Below, piece by piece: positions 8,642 to 54,892 of a stretch of DNA of 64,000 nucleotides (positions within the stretch are counted from its first letter, which is position 1; each line of letters begins with the position of its first letter). A program made the translations under genes and the position numbers. The notes under the pieces were generated by a model. It saw only the letters and a list, made by a program, of their open reading frames with translations, had not been told where the DNA came from and ran no database searches. The DNA is taken from contig OX638316.1 of assembly GCA_951812525.1 (NCBI GenBank), positions 682,001 to 746,000 of the forward strand, written 5' to 3'. The stretch comes from an uncultured Poribacteria bacterium. GTDB lineage: Bacteria > Poribacteria > WGA-4E > WGA-3G.

Positions 8642-8650
8642 TACTCTTTA
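8642..8650. repeat. Target-site duplication of the composite transposon, left copy
   Basis: TACTCTTTA directly abuts the outer end of IS copy 1. The identical nine bases directly abut the outer end of IS copy 2 (12400-12408). The inner flanks of the two ISs do not match each other or this sequence, so the duplication belongs to the whole 3.7-kb unit. Confidence 0.9.
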
Positions 8651-8685
8651 ACGTGAGTTCGATAAAAAGTTTTAGAGGTTATTGT

Positions 8686-8725
8686 GAATCTATAAGTGTT
8701 GATTTCATCAAGCCCTTATAGATTC
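8686..8725. repeat. Hairpin at transposase 3' end, IS copy 1 orientation
   Basis: The arms GAATCTATAAG/CTTATAGATTC enclose an 18-base loop reading TGTTGATTTCATCAAGCC. The transposase stop codon lies in one arm. In copy 2 (11430-11468) the whole hairpin is present as the reverse complement. Confidence 0.85.
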
Positions 8726-9566
8726 ACTGACGGTTTCTTCGCCTGATACGTATAAGCAATCAAGGCGGAAAATACATTGACTTGGAAGTTTGTGAAACTT
8801 CGGTGCCGCGTATGCTCAAGTTGACTCTGATGCTTCAGCTGGTCAATCACTGACTCAATGCACATCCGCTTCTTCAGCATCTCCGTATCAAAGTCAGAGA
8901 GCGCTTGAGATGCCATGTTCTTACGACCTTGGAAATCAAGATGACGCCCTGAGTTTTCAGCACTTCAGATAAGGAACCAGAGATATAGCCTTTATCTCCA
9001 TAGAGTCTTCCAAAAAGACCCTGCGTCAACTCCTCAACACGGCTACGGTCGTCTGTGTTTGCCGGGGTCATCTCAGCTGAAAGCAGTTCTCCCGCTGTAT
9101 TGACGATCAGATGGAGTTTAAAACCATAGAACCAACCCACGGAGTTTTTCCCATGACCGGCTTTTTCAGCGAAAACGCGATGCTTCTGAATACGGCGGTT
9201 CCCACAGACGGCAATCGGTGTTGAGTCAATAAATGAAATACCATTACACTTGCCAAATCGCAGGTGAAGATACTCAGAGAGTAGCGAAAATACCTCGGAC
9301 GTGAGTTCAACGAAGCGATTGTAACTGACGAGTTTCGGGAATGCCCAACCTAGATACCGACAGACGTGCTTTTGGTAATAGTGTTTGAAACTCCTATAGC
9401 TGCTCTGATGAAAGTTCACCAAGATCGTCATCACCTCGCTGGGATGTAGATTGCGGGGACGTCCGCGGCTCTCGGGTGTATCCGAGTCAGAATCTTCAAA
9501 GGGCATCTGTTTTTCAGTGGCAAGATAAAAGTCGTCAATATCGCAGAAAAGTGATACAATAGACAT
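8716..9566 (-). pseudogene. IS982-family transposase, frameshifted (copy 1)
   Basis: The DDE transposase begins MSIVSLFCDIDDFYL, with the first catalytic Asp in NGISFIDSTPIAVCGNRR and a second region in GWFYGFKLHLIVN...NTDDRS, as in IS982. The frame reads correctly from 9566 to about 8920. Compared with copy 2 one C is missing (copy 2 CTTACGCACC, copy 1 CTTACGACC, near 8923), after which the remainder (ALSDFDTEMLKKRMCIESV ... KKPSVNL) continues in another frame to 8716. The intact protein would be about 281 residues. Programmed -1/+1 frameshifting is not known for IS982 to my knowledge and no slippery run is seen, so I call it a pseudogene. Confidence 0.85.
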
Positions 9567-9568
9567 TG

Positions 9569-9621
9569 GAGAACTCCTTTTGGTATGGGTGTGGTTACCT
9601 CATTATACCAAAGGAGTTCTC
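9569..9621 (-). promoter_or_regulatory. IS hairpin masking the transposase ribosome-binding site, with internal promoter
   Basis: The arms GAGAACTCC (9569-9577, extending through TTTTGGTAT) and its complement (ending 9621) form a long hairpin. On the transposase strand the 3' arm contains AAAGGAG just before the ATG, while the 5' arm overlaps an extended -10 (TGGTATAAT). A transcript starting from this promoter would lack the 5' arm and leave the site free, whereas read-through transcripts would fold and hide it. The same sequence is at 12313-12365 in copy 2. Confidence 0.7.
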
Positions 9622-9703
9622 TAAACCCACCCCTATTTTATTATCGAACTCACGTTTGAATAAGATTTTTTACTAAGGAAAAATCCTGTAAAGGAGAATC
9701 ATA

Positions 9704-11263
9704 ATGAAATCACCACTGAACAAAATCACGCTTAATCTTGACAGCGACATAGAAGTTTCCGTCAAAGGTTTCATTGCACCGATAGAATACACCCAACACG
9801 ACTTCCATGCGAAATGGGATATGTTGGCGAATCTGCAGGTCGCCGAGCCAGAAAAGCAGTATCAAGTATCGGTTTTTCAATCCTTTCTTCCATCGAAATC
9901 GGTCTCTGTTGGTGAACTCTGGCAGATTGAGGAAGAAGGGGTCTTAGAACTGCTGAGGCAGCTCCACCCCAATCCAACACTGGATATGCATGATTCTCGT
10001 GGTTTGTGGGCATGTCTGCGTGCCTATAACGATGAAATCGCAGATGTTGTGTTCCGTATTCACGCAGAATTTGACCTAGTAGAGGGACGGTTCACACCCT
10101 CACAATTCGCTGGACATCTAATTATCAATCGGATCGAAGAAAAAATCACCTCCTTCCAGATGCATGTGCCTGACGGCACATTGAACTTCGACGCTATTAA
10201 GTGGGAAACAGAAACATACAAAGGCAAACCGACTTACACTGCGGACTTAGGCTTTTGCCCCCAAATAGAACTTTGTACTGGCGCGCAAGATGTTTTGCAG
10301 GATGCCAAATCCACTGAATCCATTACCCAAGCAGAAGCGGAGCAGGCATTAGCAGTACGTTTCTACAAGTTCCAGCAAATTAATTGGGTGCCACTGGAAG
10401 AGGCACTGGGACTCGCACAAGCGCAACAGAAACCCATCCATGCGATTTCAGTAAATGGTCCACTTATGGACGAGGCGTGCTGAGGGAGCGGAAAAACACT
10501 GAGAGCAGTTGCTCTCTCCGATGACCAGAATATTACATTCTTGAACGAAAATTTCATCAACACTTGGGTGATAGATTCCGATTTAGGACGTCGTCCCAGT
10601 CTACGTGATCCGATTGCCGGGCGGCGCAAACGTGAATCTAAGATCTTTGACACAACGCATCCGTTGGCACAGGCAATCGTGAAAGGATGGAAAGCAGGTT
10701 TCCAAAAAAGCTCACCCGTCGACGCTTTTATCCTATCGCCAGAACTTGGACTGATGGGCAAACAGCCCGTTAATGAACTCATTGACGACAGCAAGAGTAG
10801 AGGACTCCAATGCCATGAGGGATACCTCACGTTTCTAAAGGAGGCTTTAGCAGACAAATTTCCTGGATTAGGTAACGTTGTCCTCAGCAGAGAACAGCCT
10901 TCTCAAGAGATATTAGACACCTTTCAGATACCGACAGTCGGCTATCAGAACTACACTGTTGTTGTGATTGATACCAGAGCGTTTGAAGGTGGTGGAACAC
11001 TCACCATTGATATTGAAGTCGGTAGAAGGGATGCGGTAGGCTTTTTCTATTTGTTTGATGGCGACAGCGAGCTGCCTACAGAAGAAAAAGTGCCTAAAGG
11101 CAAACTCGCTTCAACCTGGATTTCGCCCGGCGATACACGCCAAATCACACATCATTTCGATCAAGGTCAGTTTTTTAAGTTGGGTGCCACCGGATCTTGG
11201 CGCCCAGAGAAAGGGACCACTAATGCTTTTCGCGCAAAGATCTGTGTATGGAGAGTTAAATGA
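9704..11263 (+). CDS. Selenoprotein N (SELENON)-like selenoprotein with in-frame UGA
   Basis: One 519-residue frame is interrupted only by TGA at 10481-10483 (residue 260), which I read as selenocysteine. AAAGGAG lies before the ATG. Segments match, as I remember it, the lumenal part of animal SELENON in order: QSFLP (60), FRIHAEF (117-123), FTPSQFAGH (130-138), DLGFCPQIEL (181-190), the thioredoxin-like segment VPLEEALGLAQAQQKPIHAI (229-248), then EAC-U-GSGKTLR (257-267; animal motif SCUGSGRTLR), LNENFINTW (279-287) and YLTFLKEAL (374-382). Residues about 400-519 form an extra beta-rich domain absent from the animal protein. In animals SELENON is an ER redox protein linked to calcium handling; here there is no signal peptide or membrane segment, so a cytosolic thiol/selenol oxidoreductase role is inferred. 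It is the sole passenger of a composite transposon. A nonsense mutation is the alternative, but the exact position in CUGSG argues against it. Confidence 0.88.
10481..10520 (+). promoter_or_regulatory. Sec UGA codon and SECIS-like hairpin
   Basis: After the UGA (10481-10483) a hairpin GAGAGC-AGTT-GCTCTC occupies 10501-10516: a perfect 6-bp stem with a GU-containing tetraloop whose G is 25 bases past the UGA. Bacterial SECIS elements bound by SelB sit in the coding region just downstream of UGA with a G/GU in the apical loop at roughly this distance. An alternative fold pairs GAGGGAGC (10482-10489) with GCTCTCTC (10511-10518). Confidence 0.72.
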
Positions 11264-11429
11264 AAATATTTCAAAACAAAATAACCTCCATTCTTATATG
11301 AAAACTCGAGCGAGAGGACTACGTGCGCGAATGACCAACGCCTAAAATTACCCTCGGACTAATGGGAAAAACATGTTCCTAATTTGTAAATATAACGTGA
11401 GTTCGATAAAAAGTTTTAGAGGTTATTGT

Positions 11430-11468
11430 GAATCTATAGTGCTTGATGAAATCAACACTTATAGATTC
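11430..11468. repeat. Hairpin at transposase 3' end, inverted relative to copy 1
   Basis: The loop reads TGCTTGATGAAATCAACA, which is essentially the reverse complement of the copy 1 loop, while the flanking IS sequence stays in the same orientation. One base is missing in an arm. Confidence 0.85.
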
Positions 11469-12310
11469 ACTGACGGTTTCTTCGCCTGATACGTATAAGC
11501 AATCAAGGCGGAAAATACATTGACTTGGAAGTTTGTGAAACTTCGGTGCCGGGTATTCTCAAGTTAACTCTGATGCTTCAGCTGGTCAATCACTGACTCA
11601 ATACACATCCGCTTTTTCAGCATCTCCGCATCAAAGTCAGAGAGATCTTGAGGAGCCATGTTCTTACGCACCTTGGAAATCAAGATGACGCCCTGAGTTT
11701 TCAGCACTTCAGATAAGGAACCAGAGATATAGCCTTTATCTCCATAGAGTCTTCCAAAAAGACCCTGCGTCAACTCCTCAACACGGCTACGGTCGTCTGT
11801 GTTTGCCGGGGTCATCTCAGCTGAAAGCAGTTCTCCCGCTGTATTGACGATCAGATGGAGTTTAAAACCATAGAACCAACCCGCGGAGTTTTTCCCACGA
11901 CCAGCTTTTTCAGCGAAAACGCGATGCCTCTGAATACGGCGGTTCCCACAGACGACGATCGGTGTTGAGTCAATAAATGAAATACCATTACACTTACCAA
12001 ATCGCAGGTGAAGATACTCAGAGAGTAGCGAAAATACCTCGGACGTGAGTTCAACGAAGCGATTGTAACTGACGAGTTTCGGGAATGCCCAACCTAGATA
12101 CCGACAGACGTGCTTTTGGTAATAGTGTTTGAAACTCCTATAGCTGCTCTGATGAAAGTTCACCAAGATCGTCATCACCTCGCTGGGATGTAGATTGCGG
12201 GGACGTCCGCGGCTCTCGGGTGTATCCGAGTCAGAATCTTCAAAGGGCATCTGTTTTTCAGTGGCAAGATAAAAGTCGTCAATATCGCAGAAAAGTGATA
12301 CAATAGACAT
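11460..12310 (-). pseudogene. IS982-family transposase with premature stop (copy 2)
   Basis: The frame is intact from ATG 12310 through the conserved DDE regions (FIDSTPIVVCGNRR; GWFYGFKLHLIVN; TPANTDDRS; RLYGDKGYISG) and through the point where copy 1 is frameshifted. It stops at 11564 after ...VIDQLKHQS, because the CAA (Gln) of copy 1 is TAA here. About 33 C-terminal residues (QLEHTRHRSFTNFQ...) are lost. Whether the 248-residue product is active is unknown. The ribosome-binding-site hairpin of copy 1 is conserved (12313-12365). Confidence 0.82.
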
Positions 12311-12399
12311 TGGAGAACTCCTTTTGGTATGGGTGTGGTTACCTCATTATACCAAAGGAGTTCTCTAAACCCACCCCTATTTTATTATCGAACTCACGT

Positions 12400-12408
12400 T
12401 ACTCTTTA
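12400..12408. repeat. Target-site duplication of the composite transposon, right copy
   Basis: TACTCTTTA is identical to 8642-8650 and immediately abuts the outer terminus of IS copy 2. Confidence 0.9.
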
Positions 12409-13519: not shown

Positions 13520-14623
13520 ATGCAACAACATTCAGTGTTCATTCAATTGCCATCGGCACCAATGCAAGCGATTTATAACACGATTCAGCAGGTTGGAAAA
13601 TCAAACATTCCGTTTTTCATTACTGGTGAAACCGGCGTCGGTAAGGAAGGCGTCGCAAGATACATTCATGAAAGTGGTGCTCGACGCGACCAACCTTTTA
13701 TAGCCATCAACTGTGGTAGGTTCTCCGCAGAACTCCTGCAAAGTGAACTCTTTGGACATGAAGCAGGGGCGTTTACGAGCGCAATCCGTCAGCGGCGAGG
13801 GGCGTTTGAAGTAGCAAACGGTGGTGTTCTCTTCTTGGATGAAGTACCCGAAATGTCGTTGGATGCCCAGAAAATGCTGCTGCGTGTTTTAGACACAGCG
13901 ACATTCACGCGTCTGGGTGGAAACGAAGTTCTGGCGGTGGATATCCACATTGTCGCAGCGACCAACAAAGATATTATGAAAACGGTTGCGGAAAAGGAGT
14001 TTAGGGAGGACCTCTACTATCGCCTTAAGGGCATGATGCTTCATCTACCGCCACTAAGAGAACGTCCGGAGGACGTCTCGCCTTTAGTCACAGCATTTAT
14101 TACCGAGTTCAGTGCGGAATATGGAAAAAATGTTACAGGGATCTCTTCAAAGGCACTCACGCGCCTTACACAGGCAGCGTGGCCGGGGAACATCCGCCAG
14201 TTGAGAAGCACTGTCCAGACGGCTGTCGCACTCGCGACAACTGATAAACTCGAGCCCAAAGATTTTCCTGGCATCTACCCAGAACTCGCCGAGGCACTTA
14301 TCTCTATATGGCACACCCTCCCATCGGAAACGCAAGACGCAATATGGGAAACACTCCCGCTGGAAACACAACACACAATTATGCACGAACTCTCGAAGCA
14401 GACAGCAGGATTTTGGCGTAGCCTGCCCGTTTCCAAAATGGCGAAAAAGATCGAAAATGGGGAATCTCTAAATATAGAAAATATGAATCAGAATGAAATT
14501 CTACGTGCGGTTGCACAGAAGCGTATACAACAATACACTTCCCTGCGTGAGGCAGCTGAATCATTAAGTATTGATATTCGCACGCTTCAGAGATACGCGC
14601 AATGGAAAGAGTCAGACGAATAA
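13520..14623 (+). CDS. Sigma-54-dependent activator lacking a sensory domain, copy A
   Basis: A 367-residue protein that starts almost directly with the AAA+ domain: Walker A GETGVGKE (36-43), intact sigma-54 contact loop GAFTSA (83-88), Walker B VLFLDEVPE (103-111), an arginine-finger region REDLYYRLKG, and a C-terminal Fis-type helix-turn-helix (TSLREAAESLSIDIRTLQRY). There is no receiver, GAF or PAS domain, as in PspF/HrpS-type activators, which are controlled by partner proteins or by expression level. Between AAA+ and HTH lies an unusual repeated linker (IWHTLPSETQ / IWETLPLETQ, about residues 263-300). AGGAGCC precedes the ATG. A perfect sigma-54 promoter lies upstream, and a close paralogue follows. 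Confidence 0.93.
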   Translation: MQQHSVFIQLPSAPMQAIYNTIQQVGKSNIPFFITGETGVGKEGVARYIHESGARRDQPFIAINCGRFSAELLQSELFGHEAGAFTSAIRQRRGAFEVANGGVLFLDEVPEMSLDAQKMLLRVLDTATFTRLGGNEVLAVDIHIVAATNKDIMKTVAEKEFREDLYYRLKGMMLHLPPLRERPEDVSPLVTAFITEFSAEYGKNVTGISSKALTRLTQAAWPGNIRQLRSTVQTAVALATTDKLEPKDFPGIYPELAEALISIWHTLPSETQDAIWETLPLETQHTIMHELSKQTAGFWRSLPVSKMAKKIENGESLNIENMNQNEILRAVAQKRIQQYTSLREAAESLSIDIRTLQRYAQWKESDE

Positions 14624-15050: not shown

Positions 15051-16154
15051 ATGCGTCCGCAATCATCGTTCATCCAATTACCGTCTGCGCCAATGCAGGC
15101 GATTTATAGAACAACTCAAGAAATAGTAAAGTCAAACATCCCGCTTTTCATTACCGGCGAAACCGGCGTTGGTAAGGAAGGCGTCGCAAGATATATTCAT
15201 GAAAGTGGTCCGAGACACGACCAACCTTTTATAGCTATCAACTGCGGTAGATTCTCCGCAGAACTCCTGCAAAGCGAACTCTTTGGGCATGAAGCAGGGG
15301 CGTTTACGAGTGCAATCCGTCAGCGGCGAGGGGCGTTTGAAATGGCAGACGGTGGCATCCTCTTTTTAGATGAAGTCCCTGAAATGTCCTTAGACGCACA
15401 GAAAATGCTGCTGCGTGTCTTGGATACGGCGACATTCACACGTCTGGGTGGAAATGAAACTTTGACGGTGGATGTTCACATTATTGCAGCAACCAATAAA
15501 GATATTGTGAAAGCCGTTGCGGAAAAGGAGTTTAGGGAGGATCTTTACTACCGCCTTAAGGGCATGATGTTTCACATCCCGCCGCTCAGGGAGCGTCCGG
15601 AGGACATAGCACCCTTAGTAGCAGCATTTATTAGCGAATTCAGTACTAAATATGGGAATAGGGTTAGGGAGATCTCTCGAGAGGGACTCACGCGTCTTGA
15701 GCGGTCGGCGTGGCCGGGGAACATCCGCCAGTTAAGAAGCACCATCCAGACGGCTGTCGCTTTCGCGACAACAAGCAGACTCGAACCCAAAGATTTTCCT
15801 GAAATTTATCCTGAGTTCGTCCAGACACTTATTTCTATATGGCAGACACTTCCACCAGAAACACAGAATGCGATATGGGAATCGCTCCATCCGGAGACAC
15901 AGCATACAATTATGCATGAACTCGCAACACAGTCTCCGCTACCTTGGCATAGTTTGCCGACTTCCAGCATTCTGAGGATAAGTGGAGCAATGGAGTTTCT
16001 CAATATAGAAAATATGAATCAGAATCAAATCCTACGCGCAGTTGCCCAGAAGCGTATACAGCAATACACCTCTCTGCGTGAGGCAGCTGAATCGTTGGAT
16101 ATTGATATCCGAACATTACGTAGGCACGCGGAATTGGAGCAGTCTGAAAACTAA
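15051..16154 (+). CDS. Sigma-54-dependent activator lacking a sensory domain, copy B
   Basis: A 367-residue paralogue of copy A, equal in length and nearly identical through the AAA+ core (GETGVGKE, GAFTSA, ILFLDEVPE). It diverges in the linker (IWQTLPPETQ / IWESLHPETQ) and in part of the recognition helix (SLDIDIRTLRRHAELEQ versus SLSIDIRTLQRYAQWKE). The changed recognition helix suggests the two bind different enhancer sites. AAGGAGC precedes the ATG. No correctly spaced sigma-54 promoter was found directly upstream, unlike copy A. A hairpin (16176-16196) and a terminator (16261-16322) follow. Confidence 0.92.
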   Translation: MRPQSSFIQLPSAPMQAIYRTTQEIVKSNIPLFITGETGVGKEGVARYIHESGPRHDQPFIAINCGRFSAELLQSELFGHEAGAFTSAIRQRRGAFEMADGGILFLDEVPEMSLDAQKMLLRVLDTATFTRLGGNETLTVDVHIIAATNKDIVKAVAEKEFREDLYYRLKGMMFHIPPLRERPEDIAPLVAAFISEFSTKYGNRVREISREGLTRLERSAWPGNIRQLRSTIQTAVAFATTSRLEPKDFPEIYPEFVQTLISIWQTLPPETQNAIWESLHPETQHTIMHELATQSPLPWHSLPTSSILRISGAMEFLNIENMNQNQILRAVAQKRIQQYTSLREAAESLDIDIRTLRRHAELEQSEN

Positions 16155-48292: not shown

Positions 48293-48340
48293 ACACGACG
48301 TTTCCCACACCTTTCCATAGAAATATTGGAGGTAACACTT

Positions 48341-49390
48341 ATGGCAAACGAATTAATTCAACTCGGTGTCGTCGGATGCGGGTGGGCAGGTCGCCAAGCT
48401 ATCAACGCCGCCAACGCAACCTCTCGTCTGAATGTCATCGCAATCGCAGAACGTGACCCAGCCCGTCGTGCGGAGGCAGGGGATGAAAATTCCGTACCCC
48501 ATCGCCATGCCGACTATCGCGAACTCCTTGATGATCCAGCAGTTGAAGCCGTCTATCTCGCTACTAATCCAGATGTCAGACTACAACAAGTCCTGGACAC
48601 GCTCAGTTCAGGCAGGCATGTTTTAGTGCAAAAGCCCCACGCAATTCGCGCACCTGAAATCTTGGAGATGGAAGCAGCGGCGCAAAAAGCCGGAAAAACG
48701 CTCCAATTCTGCTATTTTATGCGTCATTTCCCAAATAATCGAAAAATTCGGCGTGCTGTCCTAAACGGAGCAATCGGAGACCTGTATCATGCCCGCGTCT
48801 TTGGGAAATACAACTTCATTCCAGATCTTAATCCCAACAGCCGATGGCTACACGTCTATGGACAGAAAGGTGGTTCATTAGGGCAGCATTACTCACATGA
48901 ACTCAACCTGACGTGGTGGTGGATGGGATGCCCGAAACCGGAGTGGGCGTTCGCCGCTAAGCACGTGCTTTACCCCCAATACGCCGGGCCTGAAGGTCCT
49001 GCGGAGGACTATTTCACCGGTTTACTCGGATGCGAAGGCGGGAAAACTATACAGATCGATTGCTCTCGGATGAGCCACTCAGACTCGGCAAGTGTCGTAG
49101 AACTTTACGGCACCACCGGTGCAATCACAAACGGTGGTATATCTCGGTTCAAAGACGGTGAATTTATCCGAGAGACCGTTGATGAACCCCTCGAAATTGA
49201 CCACGGCGAACTCCCTGAAGAAATCCACGTCTTCTACTATGAACTCAACCATTTTGCGATGGCGATAGCGGGTGAGGTTGTACCAGATGTTTCCGCGTCG
49301 GATGCCTATACCTTCATGCAAATCTTGGATGCGTTCTATGATAGTGCAAAGAGCGGAGAAAAAGTTTATATCCGTTCAGGTAACGTTTGA
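48341..49390 (+). CDS. Gfo/Idh/MocA-family oxidoreductase (divergent copy)
   Basis: About 349 residues, starting at ATG 48341 with TTGGAGGT upstream. Rossmann motif GVVGCGWAGRQAINAA, the family lysine in VLVQKPHAI, and a C-terminal substrate domain (GSLGQHYSHELNLTWWWMG). NAD(P)-dependent oxidation or reduction of a sugar or polyol. It is clearly distinct from the four near-identical copies that follow, though it probably belongs to the same cluster. Confidence 0.9.
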   Translation: MANELIQLGVVGCGWAGRQAINAANATSRLNVIAIAERDPARRAEAGDENSVPHRHADYRELLDDPAVEAVYLATNPDVRLQQVLDTLSSGRHVLVQKPHAIRAPEILEMEAAAQKAGKTLQFCYFMRHFPNNRKIRRAVLNGAIGDLYHARVFGKYNFIPDLNPNSRWLHVYGQKGGSLGQHYSHELNLTWWWMGCPKPEWAFAAKHVLYPQYAGPEGPAEDYFTGLLGCEGGKTIQIDCSRMSHSDSASVVELYGTTGAITNGGISRFKDGEFIRETVDEPLEIDHGELPEEIHVFYYELNHFAMAIAGEVVPDVSASDAYTFMQILDAFYDSAKSGEKVYIRSGNV

Positions 49391-49482
49391 CAAAAACCTG
49401 TTCCGCTGCTAATCTGATACAGTCTGTTTTTTATAGCCTACGGTTTGACGTTTCCCATCAATGACACTCAGGAGATATTTCC

Positions 49483-50523
49483 ATGTATAAAACAGCGATG
49501 TTGGGGTGTGGCGGTCGCGCCCGTGCCCACGCAGATGCTTACCGTTTCGTCAAACGTGGTAAACTCGCCGCTATCTGCGATATGAACACTGAACTCCTCA
49601 ACAAATTCGGGGATGACTTCGGTATCTCTTCGCGTTACACCGACTTGGACGAGATGCTTAAAAAAGAGAAACCTGATGTCCTCCACATCGTCACAAGCCC
49701 GGTGGTTCCGAGCAATAACGAACGGATCCGCTACCCGTTGATGAAACAGGCATCCGACCACGGCGTGTCAGCGGCAATTATTGAGAAACCGGTCGCTGTT
49801 GAAAGCGAGGATTGGAAACAGATCGCAGGGTTAGCAGAAGAAACGAAAACGAAATTTGTCGTTAATACACAACTCAACTTCCACCCGAAAAATCTGGAAC
49901 TCAAAAAAGATGTTGCGGAAGGACGTATCGGCGAGATTAAGTTTATTGATGCCAGTGCACGGAGCAGATCCGCTGAGCAGGGAGGACACGTCCTACAGTT
50001 AGTATCCTCCTATATTGACAACGCACGTCCGGTGCGAGTTCTTGGTCAAATATCTGGAAACGAGTATTTAACTGCTGCTACGCATCCGTCTCCGACGCAT
50101 GTTATCGGGCACGTTTTGTATGAGAATGACCTCCATGTCTCTCTGGCATTTGGAACAGACATGGCACAAAAGGCATCCGATGACCCCGGTATCTACGGTC
50201 ACAAACGCGTTTTTGTGGTTGGCACAAAGGGTTTCGTGCATTGGCGGTTCAGCAGTTGGGAACGCGCAACACTGGAGGATGGCTATGAGAGCGGTCCACT
50301 CAATTATGGAGAGCAAGATGTCATCGCGCAGGCGAACTTTACCGAAGCCATTTTTGATTGGCTTGACGATGAGAAGAATGTGCATCCGACGCATCTCAAG
50401 CAGTCGCTCGCCGAGTGTAGCCTCATCTTAGGGATGTACTACAGTGGGCTAACAAACGAAATTGTTGATTTACCTTTTGAACCTCCCGATGGGTTAATGG
50501 ACTTACTTCAAGAGAAATTGTAA
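49483..50523 (+). CDS. Gfo/Idh/MocA oxidoreductase, tandem array copy 1
   Basis: A 346-residue protein: MLGCGGRARAHADAYRFVKR, family lysine in AIIEKPVAVES, and AQLNFHPKNLEL-type C-terminal beta domain. NAD-dependent oxidoreductase of unknown sugar/polyol substrate. The first 190 residues and last 110 are nearly identical to copies 2-4, but residues about 190-235 (SGNEYLTAATHPSPTHVIGH...) differ in sequence. AGGAGATATTTCC precedes the ATG. Confidence 0.92.
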   Translation: MYKTAMLGCGGRARAHADAYRFVKRGKLAAICDMNTELLNKFGDDFGISSRYTDLDEMLKKEKPDVLHIVTSPVVPSNNERIRYPLMKQASDHGVSAAIIEKPVAVESEDWKQIAGLAEETKTKFVVNTQLNFHPKNLELKKDVAEGRIGEIKFIDASARSRSAEQGGHVLQLVSSYIDNARPVRVLGQISGNEYLTAATHPSPTHVIGHVLYENDLHVSLAFGTDMAQKASDDPGIYGHKRVFVVGTKGFVHWRFSSWERATLEDGYESGPLNYGEQDVIAQANFTEAIFDWLDDEKNVHPTHLKQSLAECSLILGMYYSGLTNEIVDLPFEPPDGLMDLLQEKL

Positions 50524-50627
50524 TTTGAAATGAACCTGTGTTGTGGGGTGAGATCTCCGTGCCTTTGCCCGCTCCACGTTCTGGTGCGCTGCTGGCGTGC
50601 TATCACCAATATTAGAGGAGACTCCTC

Positions 50628-51665
50628 ATGTATAAAACTGCGATGTTAGGATGCGGTGGTCGCGCCCGTGCGCATGCAAACGCCTACCGTTTCGTCAAAA
50701 ACGGCAAACTCGCTGCTATCTGTGATATGAATGAAGAGATGCTCACCAGTTTTGGAGATGATTTCGGTATCTCTTCACGCTACACCGACCTGGACGAGAT
50801 GCTCGAAAAAGAGAAACCTGATGTCCTTCACATCGTCACAGCACCCGTCTTACGCGGCACCAGCGAACGGATTCGGTACCCTCTGATGAAACAAGCATCG
50901 GATGCTGGGGTGCCAGCAGCCATCGTCGAAAAACCGATTGCCGTCGAAAGCGAAGACTGGAAGCAAATCGCAGGTTTGGCAGAAGAAACGCAAACGAAAT
51001 TCGTTGTCAATACGCAGCTCAATTTTCATCCGCAAAACTTGGAACTGAAGCGGGATGTCGCAGACGGTAGAATCGGTGAGATTAAGTTCATTGATGCCAG
51101 CGCACGCAGCACACCCGTTGACCAGGCACCGCATGTACTTCAGTTGGTGTCGTCCTACATCGACAACTCGCGTCCAGTACGGGTACTCGGGCAAATCTCT
51201 GGTACCGAGCAGTTAGACTCAGCCCAACCGTCTCCTATGCACGCTGCGGCTCATGCCTTATACGACAACGGTCTCCATGTCTCTCTCGCCTTCGGGACAG
51301 GGATGGGAACACTCGCATCTGATAGCGAAAGCACGGTTGCACACAAACGTGTGTTTGTCGTCGGAACAAAAGGGTTCGTGCATTGGCGATTCAGCAGTTG
51401 GGAGCGCGCAACGCCAGAAGGCGGCTACGAAGGCGGTCCTCTTAACTATGGAGAGCAAGATGTCGCCGCACAGGGTAACCTCACCGAGGCAGTCTTTGAT
51501 TGGCTTGACGATGAGAAGAATGTGCATCCGACGCATCTTAAACAATCCCTCGCCGAATTCAATCTTCTGCTCGGTATTTACTACAGCGGAATAACAAACG
51601 AGATTATCGATCTACCTTTTGAACCTCCCGACGGATTAATGGATACACTTAGGGAACAGTTGTAA
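50628..51665 (+). CDS. Gfo/Idh/MocA oxidoreductase, tandem array copy 2
   Basis: A 345-residue paralogue of the array (MLGCGGRARAHANAYRFVKN; AAIVEKPIAVES). In the variable region it reads SGTEQLDSAQPSPMHAAAHA and GTGMGTLASDSESTVAH. AGAGGAGACTCCTC precedes the ATG, similar to the other copies. The variable segment falls in the C-terminal domain that forms the substrate pocket in this family. Confidence 0.92.
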   Translation: MYKTAMLGCGGRARAHANAYRFVKNGKLAAICDMNEEMLTSFGDDFGISSRYTDLDEMLEKEKPDVLHIVTAPVLRGTSERIRYPLMKQASDAGVPAAIVEKPIAVESEDWKQIAGLAEETQTKFVVNTQLNFHPQNLELKRDVADGRIGEIKFIDASARSTPVDQAPHVLQLVSSYIDNSRPVRVLGQISGTEQLDSAQPSPMHAAAHALYDNGLHVSLAFGTGMGTLASDSESTVAHKRVFVVGTKGFVHWRFSSWERATPEGGYEGGPLNYGEQDVAAQGNLTEAVFDWLDDEKNVHPTHLKQSLAEFNLLLGIYYSGITNEIIDLPFEPPDGLMDTLREQL

Positions 51666-51707
51666 GCCTGAGCCGAATTCGTAGGGAATATTTACAGGAG
51701 AACTTCC

Positions 51708-52751
51708 ATGTATAAAACTGCAATGTTAGGGTGCGGCGGTCGCGCCCGTGCCCACGCAGATGCCTATCGCTTCGTCAAAAACGGTAAACTCGCCGCTATC
51801 TGCGATATGAACGAAGAATTGCTCACCAGCTTCGGAGACGATTTCGGTATCTCTTCACGCTACACCGACCTGGACGAGATGCTCGAAAAAGAAAAACCCG
51901 ATGTCCTCCACATCGTCACAGCACCCGTTTTACGCGGCACCAATGAACGGATCCGATATTCGCTGATGAAACAGGCTTCCGACCACGGTGTGCCAGCAGC
52001 CATCGTTGAAAAACCGATTGCCGTTGAAAGTGAAGATTGGAAACAGTTGGCAGGATTAGCAAACGAAACACAAACGAAGTTTGTCGTTAACACACAACTC
52101 AATTTTCACCCGAAAAACTTAGAATTGAAGCGAGATGTTGCAGAAGGTAGGATTGGCGAAATCAAGTTTATTGATGCCAGCGCACGCAGCACGCCTGTAG
52201 ATCAGGGTCCCCATGTGTTGCAGCTCGTCTCCTCCTACATCGACAACTCACGTCCAGTCCGGGTACTCGGGCAAGTTTCTGGGGCTCAGGATTTGGACTC
52301 CACTCAGCCCTCGCCTATGCATGCTGCCGGTCAGGCACTATATGACAACGGTCTTCACGTCTCCCTCGCATTCGGGACAGGTGTAGGACAGCGAGTGCCT
52401 AAAGAACCAGATGCGGGTAATCACACCCATAAACGCGTTTTTGTTGTAGGCACGAAAGGTTTCGTGCACTGGCGGTTCAGCAGCTGGGAACGTGCCACAC
52501 CAAAAGGCGGCTACGAAAGCGGTCCGCTCGACTACGGAGAGCAGGATGTCGTTGCGCAAGGCAATCTCACCGAAGCAGTCTTTGACTGGCTCGACGACGA
52601 GAACAACGTGCATCCGACGCATCTTAAACAATCCCTCGCCGAATTCAATCTTTTGCTCGGTATTTACTACAGCGGGGTAACGAATCAGATTATCGAACTC
52701 CCGTTTGAACCGCCGGATGGGTTGATTGATATACTTCGAGAAAAGTTGTAA
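51708..52751 (+). CDS. Gfo/Idh/MocA oxidoreductase, tandem array copy 3
   Basis: A 347-residue paralogue (AIVEKPIAVES; SGAQDLDSTQPSPMHAAGQA; GTGVGQRVPKEPDAGNH). It is very close to copies 2 and 4 outside the variable window, with about two extra residues inside it. AGGAGAACTTCC precedes the ATG. It lies 42 bases after copy 2, so the array is probably one transcript up to here; a new promoter follows this gene. Confidence 0.92.
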   Translation: MYKTAMLGCGGRARAHADAYRFVKNGKLAAICDMNEELLTSFGDDFGISSRYTDLDEMLEKEKPDVLHIVTAPVLRGTNERIRYSLMKQASDHGVPAAIVEKPIAVESEDWKQLAGLANETQTKFVVNTQLNFHPKNLELKRDVAEGRIGEIKFIDASARSTPVDQGPHVLQLVSSYIDNSRPVRVLGQVSGAQDLDSTQPSPMHAAGQALYDNGLHVSLAFGTGVGQRVPKEPDAGNHTHKRVFVVGTKGFVHWRFSSWERATPKGGYESGPLDYGEQDVVAQGNLTEAVFDWLDDENNVHPTHLKQSLAEFNLLLGIYYSGVTNQIIELPFEPPDGLIDILREKL

Positions 52752-52803
52752 ACCGACGGGCGTAGCGATAGGTGAGACTTCAACCTACCGCTACCCCTAA
52801 AAA

Positions 52804-52833
52804 TTGACAGGCATTCCAAAACTGTGCTATAAT
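52804..52833 (+). promoter_or_regulatory. Sigma-70 promoter upstream of the Rpn-like gene
   Basis: TTGACA (52804-52809), 18 bases, TATAAT (52828-52833): both hexamers are perfect. It gives the nuclease gene its own promoter inside the oxidoreductase array. Confidence 0.75.
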
Positions 52834-52868
52834 TCAAAAAAGACACACTAAACCGTGAAAGGAATCGG

Positions 52869-53762
52869 ATGGCAAGTTTTGATACTGCCTCTAAAAAACA
52901 GGTCGAAACAAATCCCCAAGACTTCGTAAACCTCTGCTTTAAATTCGGGCTAGAAGATATTACCGTCCTAGAGATTATCACACCGGAGCAACCTACAATT
53001 GAAATGCATCAAGCAGATATCCTCATCAAAGCACATCGCAACGACAGAGAGGTCCTTGTGCATTTCGAGTTTCAAACTACCGATAGCTACGATCCAGAGA
53101 TGCCGCTCCGAATGGCAGGCTACATTATTAGAGCAATTGAAGTCTACCGGCTGCCCATCTATTCCAATGTCATCTATCTACGGCCCGACGCTGGTAGAAG
53201 TGATCCAGGAAAATTTGAGCAAAATCTGGAACAGCATCGTATTTCCATTGAATACCAAGTTTTTCGCTTGATTGAAATGGATGGACAAGCGATTCTCAAT
53301 TTGAAACCCGCAGGTTTGATACCGTTCACGCCGCTTATGAAGCGTCCAGTAGATATGGATGCAGAGCAGTGGCTACGCCGCTGTATCCAAACTGCAGATA
53401 GCATCGATATTCCTAACAAACCGGAATATCTTGGGAGTCTGGCTGTTTTGGGAAATTTAGTCTATGATTCGGAAATGATTTTAGAGATTATTTTGGAGGA
53501 AACCATGCAACAACCTTCTATTGTCGAATACGTGGCACCACAGGCACATGAACAGGGAGTGCAAAAAGGGGCACGAGAGAGTACTCGGAAGCATATCCTT
53601 GAGGTCCTCGCGCTTCGATTACAGCCCGAGGTAGCACAAACCTTCAAACCAACGCTTGAGGCAATTGATGACCTACAACGTCTCGAGCAGTTGTTTGGTG
53701 CTGCGATAAAAGTGGAAAGCTTGGAAGACTTCAAACAAGCACTAAACGAAAATGGGGACTAA
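52869..53762 (+). CDS. Rpn-family PD-(D/E)XK nuclease/transposase-like protein
   Basis: A 297-residue protein with the Rpn/YhgA-like core: ADILIKAHRNDREVLVHFEFQ (the D and E-x-Q of the nuclease), YDPEMPLRMAGYIIRAIEVY and VIYLRPDAG. A C-terminal helical part follows (HILEVLALRLQPEVAQ). Rpn proteins promote RecA-independent recombination in E. coli, known for that family. Its insertion between two near-identical oxidoreductase copies suggests either a recent insertion or a role in array rearrangement. AAAGGAATCGG precedes the ATG. Confidence 0.85.
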   Translation: MASFDTASKKQVETNPQDFVNLCFKFGLEDITVLEIITPEQPTIEMHQADILIKAHRNDREVLVHFEFQTTDSYDPEMPLRMAGYIIRAIEVYRLPIYSNVIYLRPDAGRSDPGKFEQNLEQHRISIEYQVFRLIEMDGQAILNLKPAGLIPFTPLMKRPVDMDAEQWLRRCIQTADSIDIPNKPEYLGSLAVLGNLVYDSEMILEIILEETMQQPSIVEYVAPQAHEQGVQKGARESTRKHILEVLALRLQPEVAQTFKPTLEAIDDLQRLEQLFGAAIKVESLEDFKQALNENGD

Positions 53763-53854
53763 ACCGCGCCTTCCTCCCCGTAACTTATCTATACTTTCTA
53801 CCATAAACTCTCATCTGTTTTGGTTCAAATCAGGATATTAAAGGAGAACCTTTT

Positions 53855-54892
53855 ATGTATAAAACCGCCATGTTAGGGTGCGGGGGTCGTGCCCGCGCCC
53901 ATGCAGATGCCTACCGTTTCGTCAAAAATGGCAAACTCGCCGCTGTCTGTGATATGAACACTGAACTGCTCAACAAATTCGGAGACGACTTCGGTATCCC
54001 TTCACGTTACACCGATTTGGATGAGATGCTTGAAAAAGAAAAACCCGATGTCCTTCATATCGTCACAGCACCCGTGCTGCGGGGCAGCAACGAACGAATT
54101 CGGTATCCGCTGATGAAACAGGCATCGGATGCCGGTGTGCCAGCAGCGATTGTCGAAAAACCGATTGCCGTCGAAAGCGAAGATTGGAAACAGATCGCAG
54201 GATTGGCAGAAGAGACAAAAACCAAATTCGTCGTCAATACGCAGCTCAACTTCCACCCACAAAACCTGGAATTAAAGCGGGATGTCGCAGAAGGCAGAAT
54301 CGGGGATATTAAGTTCATTGATGCCAGCGCACGCAGCACACCCGTTGACCAAGGTCCACACGTGCTACAACTGGTATCTTCCTATATCGACAACTCCCGT
54401 CCGACGCGAGTACTCGGGCAAATTTCAGGAAGCGAACAGTTGGATTCGGCGCAACCTTCTCCGCAATACGCCAGCGCACGCGTCCAGTACGACAACGGAC
54501 TCCACGTTTCTGTAGCATTCGGGACAGCGATCGCACCGACCGCTTCTGATGATCCAGTCGTCTTTTTCCACAAACGTGTTTTTGTCGTAGGCACGAAAGG
54601 TTTTGTGCATTGGCGGTTCAGCAGTTGGGAACGTTCAACACCAGACGGTGGCTACGAAGGCGGTCCCCTCAGCTACGGAGAGCAGGATGTCATCGCACAG
54701 GGTAATCTCACCGAGGCAGTCTTCGATTGGCTTGACGATGAGAGTAAGGTGCACCCGACGCACCTTAAACAATCGCTCGCTGAGTTTAATCTCCTTTTGG
54801 GAATCTACTATAGCGGTATCACGAACGAGGTGATTGAACTCCCCTTTGATCCACCAGATGGACTGATGGATTCACTAAGAGCCAAGCTATAG
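53855..54892 (+). CDS. Gfo/Idh/MocA oxidoreductase, tandem array copy 4
   Basis: A 345-residue paralogue (AAVCDMNTELLNKFGDDFGIP; AIVEKPIAVES). Variable region SGSEQLDSAQPSPQYASARV and GTAIAPTASDDPVVFFH. The N-terminus combines copy 1-like (MNTELLNKFGDDFG) and copy 2/3-like (VLHIVTAPVLRG) blocks, suggesting gene conversion among the copies. AAAGGAGAACC lies before the ATG. Confidence 0.92.
   Translation: MYKTAMLGCGGRARAHADAYRFVKNGKLAAVCDMNTELLNKFGDDFGIPSRYTDLDEMLEKEKPDVLHIVTAPVLRGSNERIRYPLMKQASDAGVPAAIVEKPIAVESEDWKQIAGLAEETKTKFVVNTQLNFHPQNLELKRDVAEGRIGDIKFIDASARSTPVDQGPHVLQLVSSYIDNSRPTRVLGQISGSEQLDSAQPSPQYASARVQYDNGLHVSVAFGTAIAPTASDDPVVFFHKRVFVVGTKGFVHWRFSSWERSTPDGGYEGGPLSYGEQDVIAQGNLTEAVFDWLDDESKVHPTHLKQSLAEFNLLLGIYYSGITNEVIELPFDPPDGLMDSLRAKL

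Follow-up and report, generated by a model that had tools for sequence, protein, structure and literature searches.

A probable bacterial selenoprotein with homology to the animal SELENON core in a Poribacteria genome

A 64,000-nucleotide stretch of the genome of an uncultured Poribacteria bacterium (the whole of it is called the window here) holds a gene that most probably encodes a bacterial selenoprotein, a homologue of the animal SELENON (SEPN1) core, with an in-frame UGA read as selenocysteine (Sec), and that would have arrived on a composite transposon. We give this explanation as a whole a probability of roughly 0.93. The coordinates of the gene, of its parts and of the flanking elements are collected in Table 1.

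The gene consists of two frames (9704-10483 and 10484-11263) that, as the earlier note had pointed out, are in phase and are separated by a single TGA. Reading through this codon yields a product of 519 aa that contains LMDEACUGSGKTLRA and is closed by a TGA stop. The internal TGA also falls where the note had placed it with respect to SELENON, since residue 260, within the ACUGSG motif, aligns to the human Sec. Among the loci of the species-level scan, 188 of the 189 homologous alignments spanning this codon read TGA there, and the remaining one reads TCA. Once later loci are included, the position carries UGA in 200 of 201 unique cores, Ser in one and Cys in none, so that the note's proviso about homologues having a sense codon other than Cys or Sec comes down to a single Ser. 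Median dN/dS is 0.16 before the UGA and 0.15 after it (269 pairs), that is, purifying selection is equal on both sides. Because of this conservation and these ratios, the in-frame UGA is not a chance occurrence.

A standard gene finder, like the list of open reading frames, splits the gene in two, which is what would be expected of two separate genes or of a pseudogene cut by a nonsense codon. However, 185 distinct homologous genes were extracted that have TGA at this very codon, with purifying selection on both of its sides, and the GSGKxLRA segment just after the UGA is conserved upstream of any possible start of a second frame. The 185 genes, taken together with dN/dS, can be regarded as having already refuted such a reading, to which we attach almost no probability. 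With respect to individual homologues, the sole Ser case (L064:5646-7214, TCA) may be either a sequence error or a genuine loss, and the L072 gene at 6343 has a second in-frame TGA, located between the thioredoxin and C-terminal domains. Loci L024, L025, L027, L028, L029, L036 and L048 contain many tandem SelN copies with a near-identical leader, about AAAATTTCTGTAGAGGA, 5' of the start codon.

The genome, which is assembled as one contig of 5.06 Mb, possesses selA, selD and a selB gene adjoined by tRNA-Sec(UCA); the search for selA, selB, selC and selD proposed in the earlier note thus recovers the whole Sec machinery. The selD gene (G000:C1:3914052-3914975, L020) has an in-frame TGA itself (CAGUASK), and for this reason its product is probably a selenoprotein too.

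A hairpin resembling the apical part of a bacterial SECIS (bSECIS) lies 3' of the UGA, separated from it by 17 nt up to the stem and by 23 nt up to the loop (stem included). The published bSECIS model requires a stem of 4-16 bp, a loop of 3-9 nt with an early G, a spacing of 16-37 nt and a minimum free energy of at most -7.5 (PMC13188914), and all 185 homologous UGA genes (185/185) comply with it. Stems of at least 6 bp are present in 183/185 genes versus 118/925 random places within the same genes, and 96% of the hairpin pairs are formed versus 38-82% with slid partners. Nucleotides 24 and 33, both of them third codon positions, pair with each other and have changed on both sides in 19 rows, in a compensatory manner. 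Column shuffles of the hairpin were also exceeded; such shuffles ignore kinship and are not relied on. Codon usage is constrained as well: the invariant Arg267 is encoded by AGG or AGA in 157/157 sequences, while in the rest of these genes AGR accounts for 27% of Arg, and the other invariant Arg residues of the family are encoded almost exclusively by CGN. The gene-wide minimum of third-base variation is at codons 257-272. Subfamily B keeps a 7-pair hairpin in a shifted register, despite a different protein at that place. A longer lower stem was considered and dropped, as pairing counts gave it no support.

Decoding of the UGA as a different amino acid (Trp or Cys), or general leakiness, has nothing in its favor beyond the open frame. 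Against these readings stand the presence of tRNA-Sec, SelA, SelB and SelD, the SECIS-type hairpin 3' of the UGA, and the fact that TGA serves as the stop of this same gene (its end at 11263), all of which make these possibilities highly improbable. Since SelB and tRNA-Sec(UCA) are encoded in the genome, a SECIS hairpin follows the codon and the protein is conserved across it, Sec would be inserted at residue 260, and we consider that the UGA almost certainly stands for Sec.

Table 1. Features of the selN-like gene and its surroundings (positions in the window)
Feature	Position	Strand	Basis or remarks
Left 9-bp target-site duplication TACTCTTTA	8642..8650	.	Abuts the IS pair on the outside
Left IS copy, 1005 bp	8651..9655	-	Terminal inverted repeats; DDE transposase frame broken
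selN-like selenoprotein gene	9704..11263	+	519 sense/Sec codons plus TGA stop; read-through translation, bacterial family alignment, SELENON homology
N-terminal beta-rich domain (about residues 1-195), common to animal SELENON	9704..10288	+	90-bit profile match to human; confident model
Thioredoxin-like domain (about residues 220-384), C259-U260 pair	10361..10855	+	DsbH Z 12.8, AGR3 Z 11.3
UGA codon, almost certainly for Sec, residue 260 of ACUGSG	10481..10483	+	UGA kept in 188/189 alignments; Sec machinery in genome; dN/dS equal on both sides
Putative apical hairpin of bacterial SECIS, GAGAGC-AGUU-GCUCUC	10501..10516	+	Pairing, compensatory changes, codon constraint, agreement with published bSECIS constraints
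C-terminal beta-sandwich domain (about residues 393-519)	10880..11260	+	Model, fold comparison (PliG Z 12.2), domain counts
Right IS copy, 1005 bp	11395..12399	-	97.5% identical to left copy, direct orientation; transposase frame broken
Right 9-bp target-site duplication TACTCTTTA	12400..12408	.	Abuts the IS pair on the outside

The human SELENON used for comparison was a provisional copy of the sequence, with 590 residues, Sec at 462 and Arg at 466 and 291. Published residue numbers of SEPN1 agree with it in length (590), Sec462, Arg466 and Arg291 (PMC12839072, PMC8967691). BLASTP of the window protein against this sequence gives 4e-38, and a profile constructed from bacterial sequences only matches it at E=5.9e-59, the best of 2000 shuffled sequences being at E = 4.9. 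The profile match is made up of two separate domains, one in the N-terminal half (90 bits) and one in the Sec half (101 bits), and human and bacterial cores align over about 345-371 residues with 25-32% identity. The similarity over both halves on which the earlier note had made its proposal depend is therefore present, and the blocks FRIHAEF, FTPSQF, LEEALGLAQ, LNENFINTW and YLTFLKEAL lie at the places it gave, in SELENON order. Human Gly273, His293, Gly315 and Asn340 are identical in 8/8 bacterial rows; Arg291, which lies in the FRIHAEF block, is matched by window Arg118 and is invariant in the family alignment, and human residue 466 (Arg) is Lys in the aligned bacterial rows. Arg291Gln, Arg466Gln and Sec462Arg are patient variants on record (PMC12839072, PMC8967691).

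Sec thioredoxin folds are common in bacteria (PMC13188914), and a thioredoxin-family selenoprotein could have come to resemble SELENON at the CU motif only, by convergence. This is hardly credible, since the N-terminal half, which is outside the thioredoxin domain, matches the human protein alone at 90 bits. The features that define a selenoprotein N core are found together in the window protein: homology that goes beyond the motif, (S/A)CU(G/A) with Sec in place, and a thioredoxin-like domain around the Sec. Bacterial proteins begin to align at about human residue 165-190, past the EF-hand, and this calcium domain is absent from them in the alignment to human; the N-terminal membrane anchor, with its type II topology, is absent from the window copy. 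Thus, the description of the protein as SELENON-like along its length stands for both halves (BLASTP 4e-38; 90 and 101 bits) and has to be restricted on account of the missing EF-hand and anchor and of an extra C-terminal domain. By these alignments, the window protein is homologous to the SELENON core and is not an entire animal SELENON.

The structure model of the window protein (mean pLDDT 85) is composed of an N-terminal beta-rich domain, a thioredoxin-like domain and a C-terminal beta sandwich. The N-terminal domain folded by itself reaches a pLDDT of 87.6, and fold comparison gave no clear match for it (best Z 6.1), which is not proof of a new fold. In the model, the thioredoxin-like domain matches DsbH (Z 12.8 over 124 residues at 3.1 A) and human AGR3 (Z 11.3), with C259-U260 placed between its first strand and helix, and the C-terminal sandwich matches PliG (Z 12.2 over 113 residues). 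This last domain is missing from animal SELENON and from short bacterial forms of about 360-390 residues, which end near the end of the human protein; domain counts give one beta domain after the core in most forms and two in some. No model of Pfam or NCBIfam matches, and sequence searches of PDB chains found no relative.

With respect to distribution, the first scan covered one genome for each of 84,980 species with patterns resembling the window protein, for which reason distant relatives in other phyla could escape it, and returned 68 loci, every one titled Poribacteria. Within this phylum, 65 of 85 genomes match, and a single genome can have as many as 18 matches, of which some are pieces; SelN matches in these 85 genomes are confined to families f1-f3, inside the order of the window genome, and there are none in other classes. 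No homologue was detected in a sample of 302 genomes from other phyla, nor in viral contigs and plasmids. Two weak hits in that sample (G241 and G380) were dropped, as they match at 22 bits and extend over no more than about 70 residues of the thioredoxin part. The suggestion of SelN-like sequences in Poribacteria made in the earlier note was right, all homologues found belonging to this phylum. Of the 65 genomes with SelN, 57 have selA, and most of the eight that lack it are incomplete assemblies; selA is also present in 15 of the 20 Poribacteria genomes without SelN. Therefore, Sec decoding is wider than SelN in Poribacteria. The window genome carries six SelN genes, four of them with signal- or lipoprotein-like leaders and two (the window copy and one other) without.

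In the tree, bacterial sequences form two deep subfamilies, each with a long stem of good support (100/99). The human sequence joins between them on a very long branch. This tree has one animal sequence (the human one) and a midpoint root, and its bootstrap had not settled; a tree with one animal sequence cannot settle the direction of transfer. Poribacteria are known as sponge symbionts, and a recent capture of the gene from the sponge host could be envisaged. The sponge Amphimedon has SelN (PMC3473315), and the bacterial family is found in one order only. However, such a recent capture would be expected to leave shallow bacterial diversity and the diversity seen is deep, with the human branch joining between two subfamilies; in addition, all bacterial genes have an in-frame bacterial SECIS and lack the EF-hand and the anchor, so we consider this capture unlikely. 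The opposite course is a tentative possibility, less likely than not: SELENON may have originated as a selenoprotein of bacteria, in the Poribacteria lineage, and passed to the animal stem from an associated bacterium; it would then have exchanged its in-frame bacterial SECIS for a SECIS in the 3'-UTR and gained the EF-hand and the membrane anchor.

The gene is placed between two like IS copies, both with terminal inverted repeats, and TACTCTTTA flanks the IS pair only, with no repeat across either single IS; two like copies around a passenger gene and a duplication outside the pair only are the hallmarks of a composite transposon. Both flanking copies are broken; a solo IS copy at another place is flanked by an 8-bp duplication of its own, and its transposase frame is open. 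An empty transposon site was not found in relatives. The simplest reading of this arrangement is that the SelN gene came to its present place as the passenger of a composite transposon (window 8642-12408). Further along the window, two adjacent genes for sigma-54 interaction domain proteins of equal length (13520-14623 and 15051-16154, 367 aa) look like a tandem duplication, and five genes for GFO/IDH/MocA oxidoreductases of about 345-354 aa occupy one stretch (48326-54892).

The protein is predicted to act as a selenothiol reductase on disulfides or peroxides, an activity of the kind that has been claimed for SELENON and for thioredoxin reductase. This prediction derives from the fold and the motif, as no conserved neighbor names a partner: no gene family adjoins SelN in most loci, and neither a reductase partner nor a substrate was found there. 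After insertion of Sec by SelB and tRNA-Sec(UCA) under the direction of the SECIS hairpin, C259 and U260 would form a selenenylsulfide, which a cellular thiol system would reduce, and the reduced Cys-Sec pair could then reduce disulfides of partners or peroxides. The window copy would act in the cytoplasm and the paralogues with signal or lipoprotein leaders beyond the inner membrane. The beta domains probably bind partners.

A 2026 inventory lists 119 prokaryotic selenoprotein families and subfamilies, without an entry for selenoprotein N (PMC13188914). A search of a literature collection with few subscription journals found no report of bacterial SelN or of selenoprotein N joined with Poribacteria. 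An earlier mention of SelN in Poribacteria may exist. If it does, the new parts would be the scale, the SECIS evidence, the two subfamilies, the added domain, the lack of Cys forms and the transposon. Methods based on Cys/Sec pairs would miss the SelN family, since no Cys form occurs in the sample. SELENON is a human muscle-disease protein of debated chemistry and has no solved relative among the PDB chains searched. A large bacterial family with the SELENON core could provide soluble proteins for structure and enzymology, with hundreds of natural variants; it sets the redox core apart from the calcium-sensing part, and it allows phylogeny to test where an animal selenoprotein came from.

Compared with animal SELENON, the bacterial family shares the homologous core, the CU motif with Sec in place and the thioredoxin-like domain, and the C-terminal end point of the animal protein matches that of the short bacterial forms. 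In contrast, the bacterial family has neither EF-hand nor N-terminal membrane anchor, most copies add a C-terminal beta domain, the SECIS is inside the coding region instead of the 3'-UTR, and genomes carry many paralogues. As in known bacterial selenoproteins (119 families, PMC13188914), UGA, a bSECIS and SelA/SelB/SelD/tRNA-Sec are present, whereas SelN has no inventory entry and no Cys form was found for it. DsbH and the anterior gradient protein AGR3 have the fold of window residues 220-384 (Z 12.8 and 11.3) at 13% and 19% identity; unlike the window protein, they do not contain the SELENON N-terminal domain, and the redox pair that distinguishes the window protein from them is a vicinal Cys-Sec.
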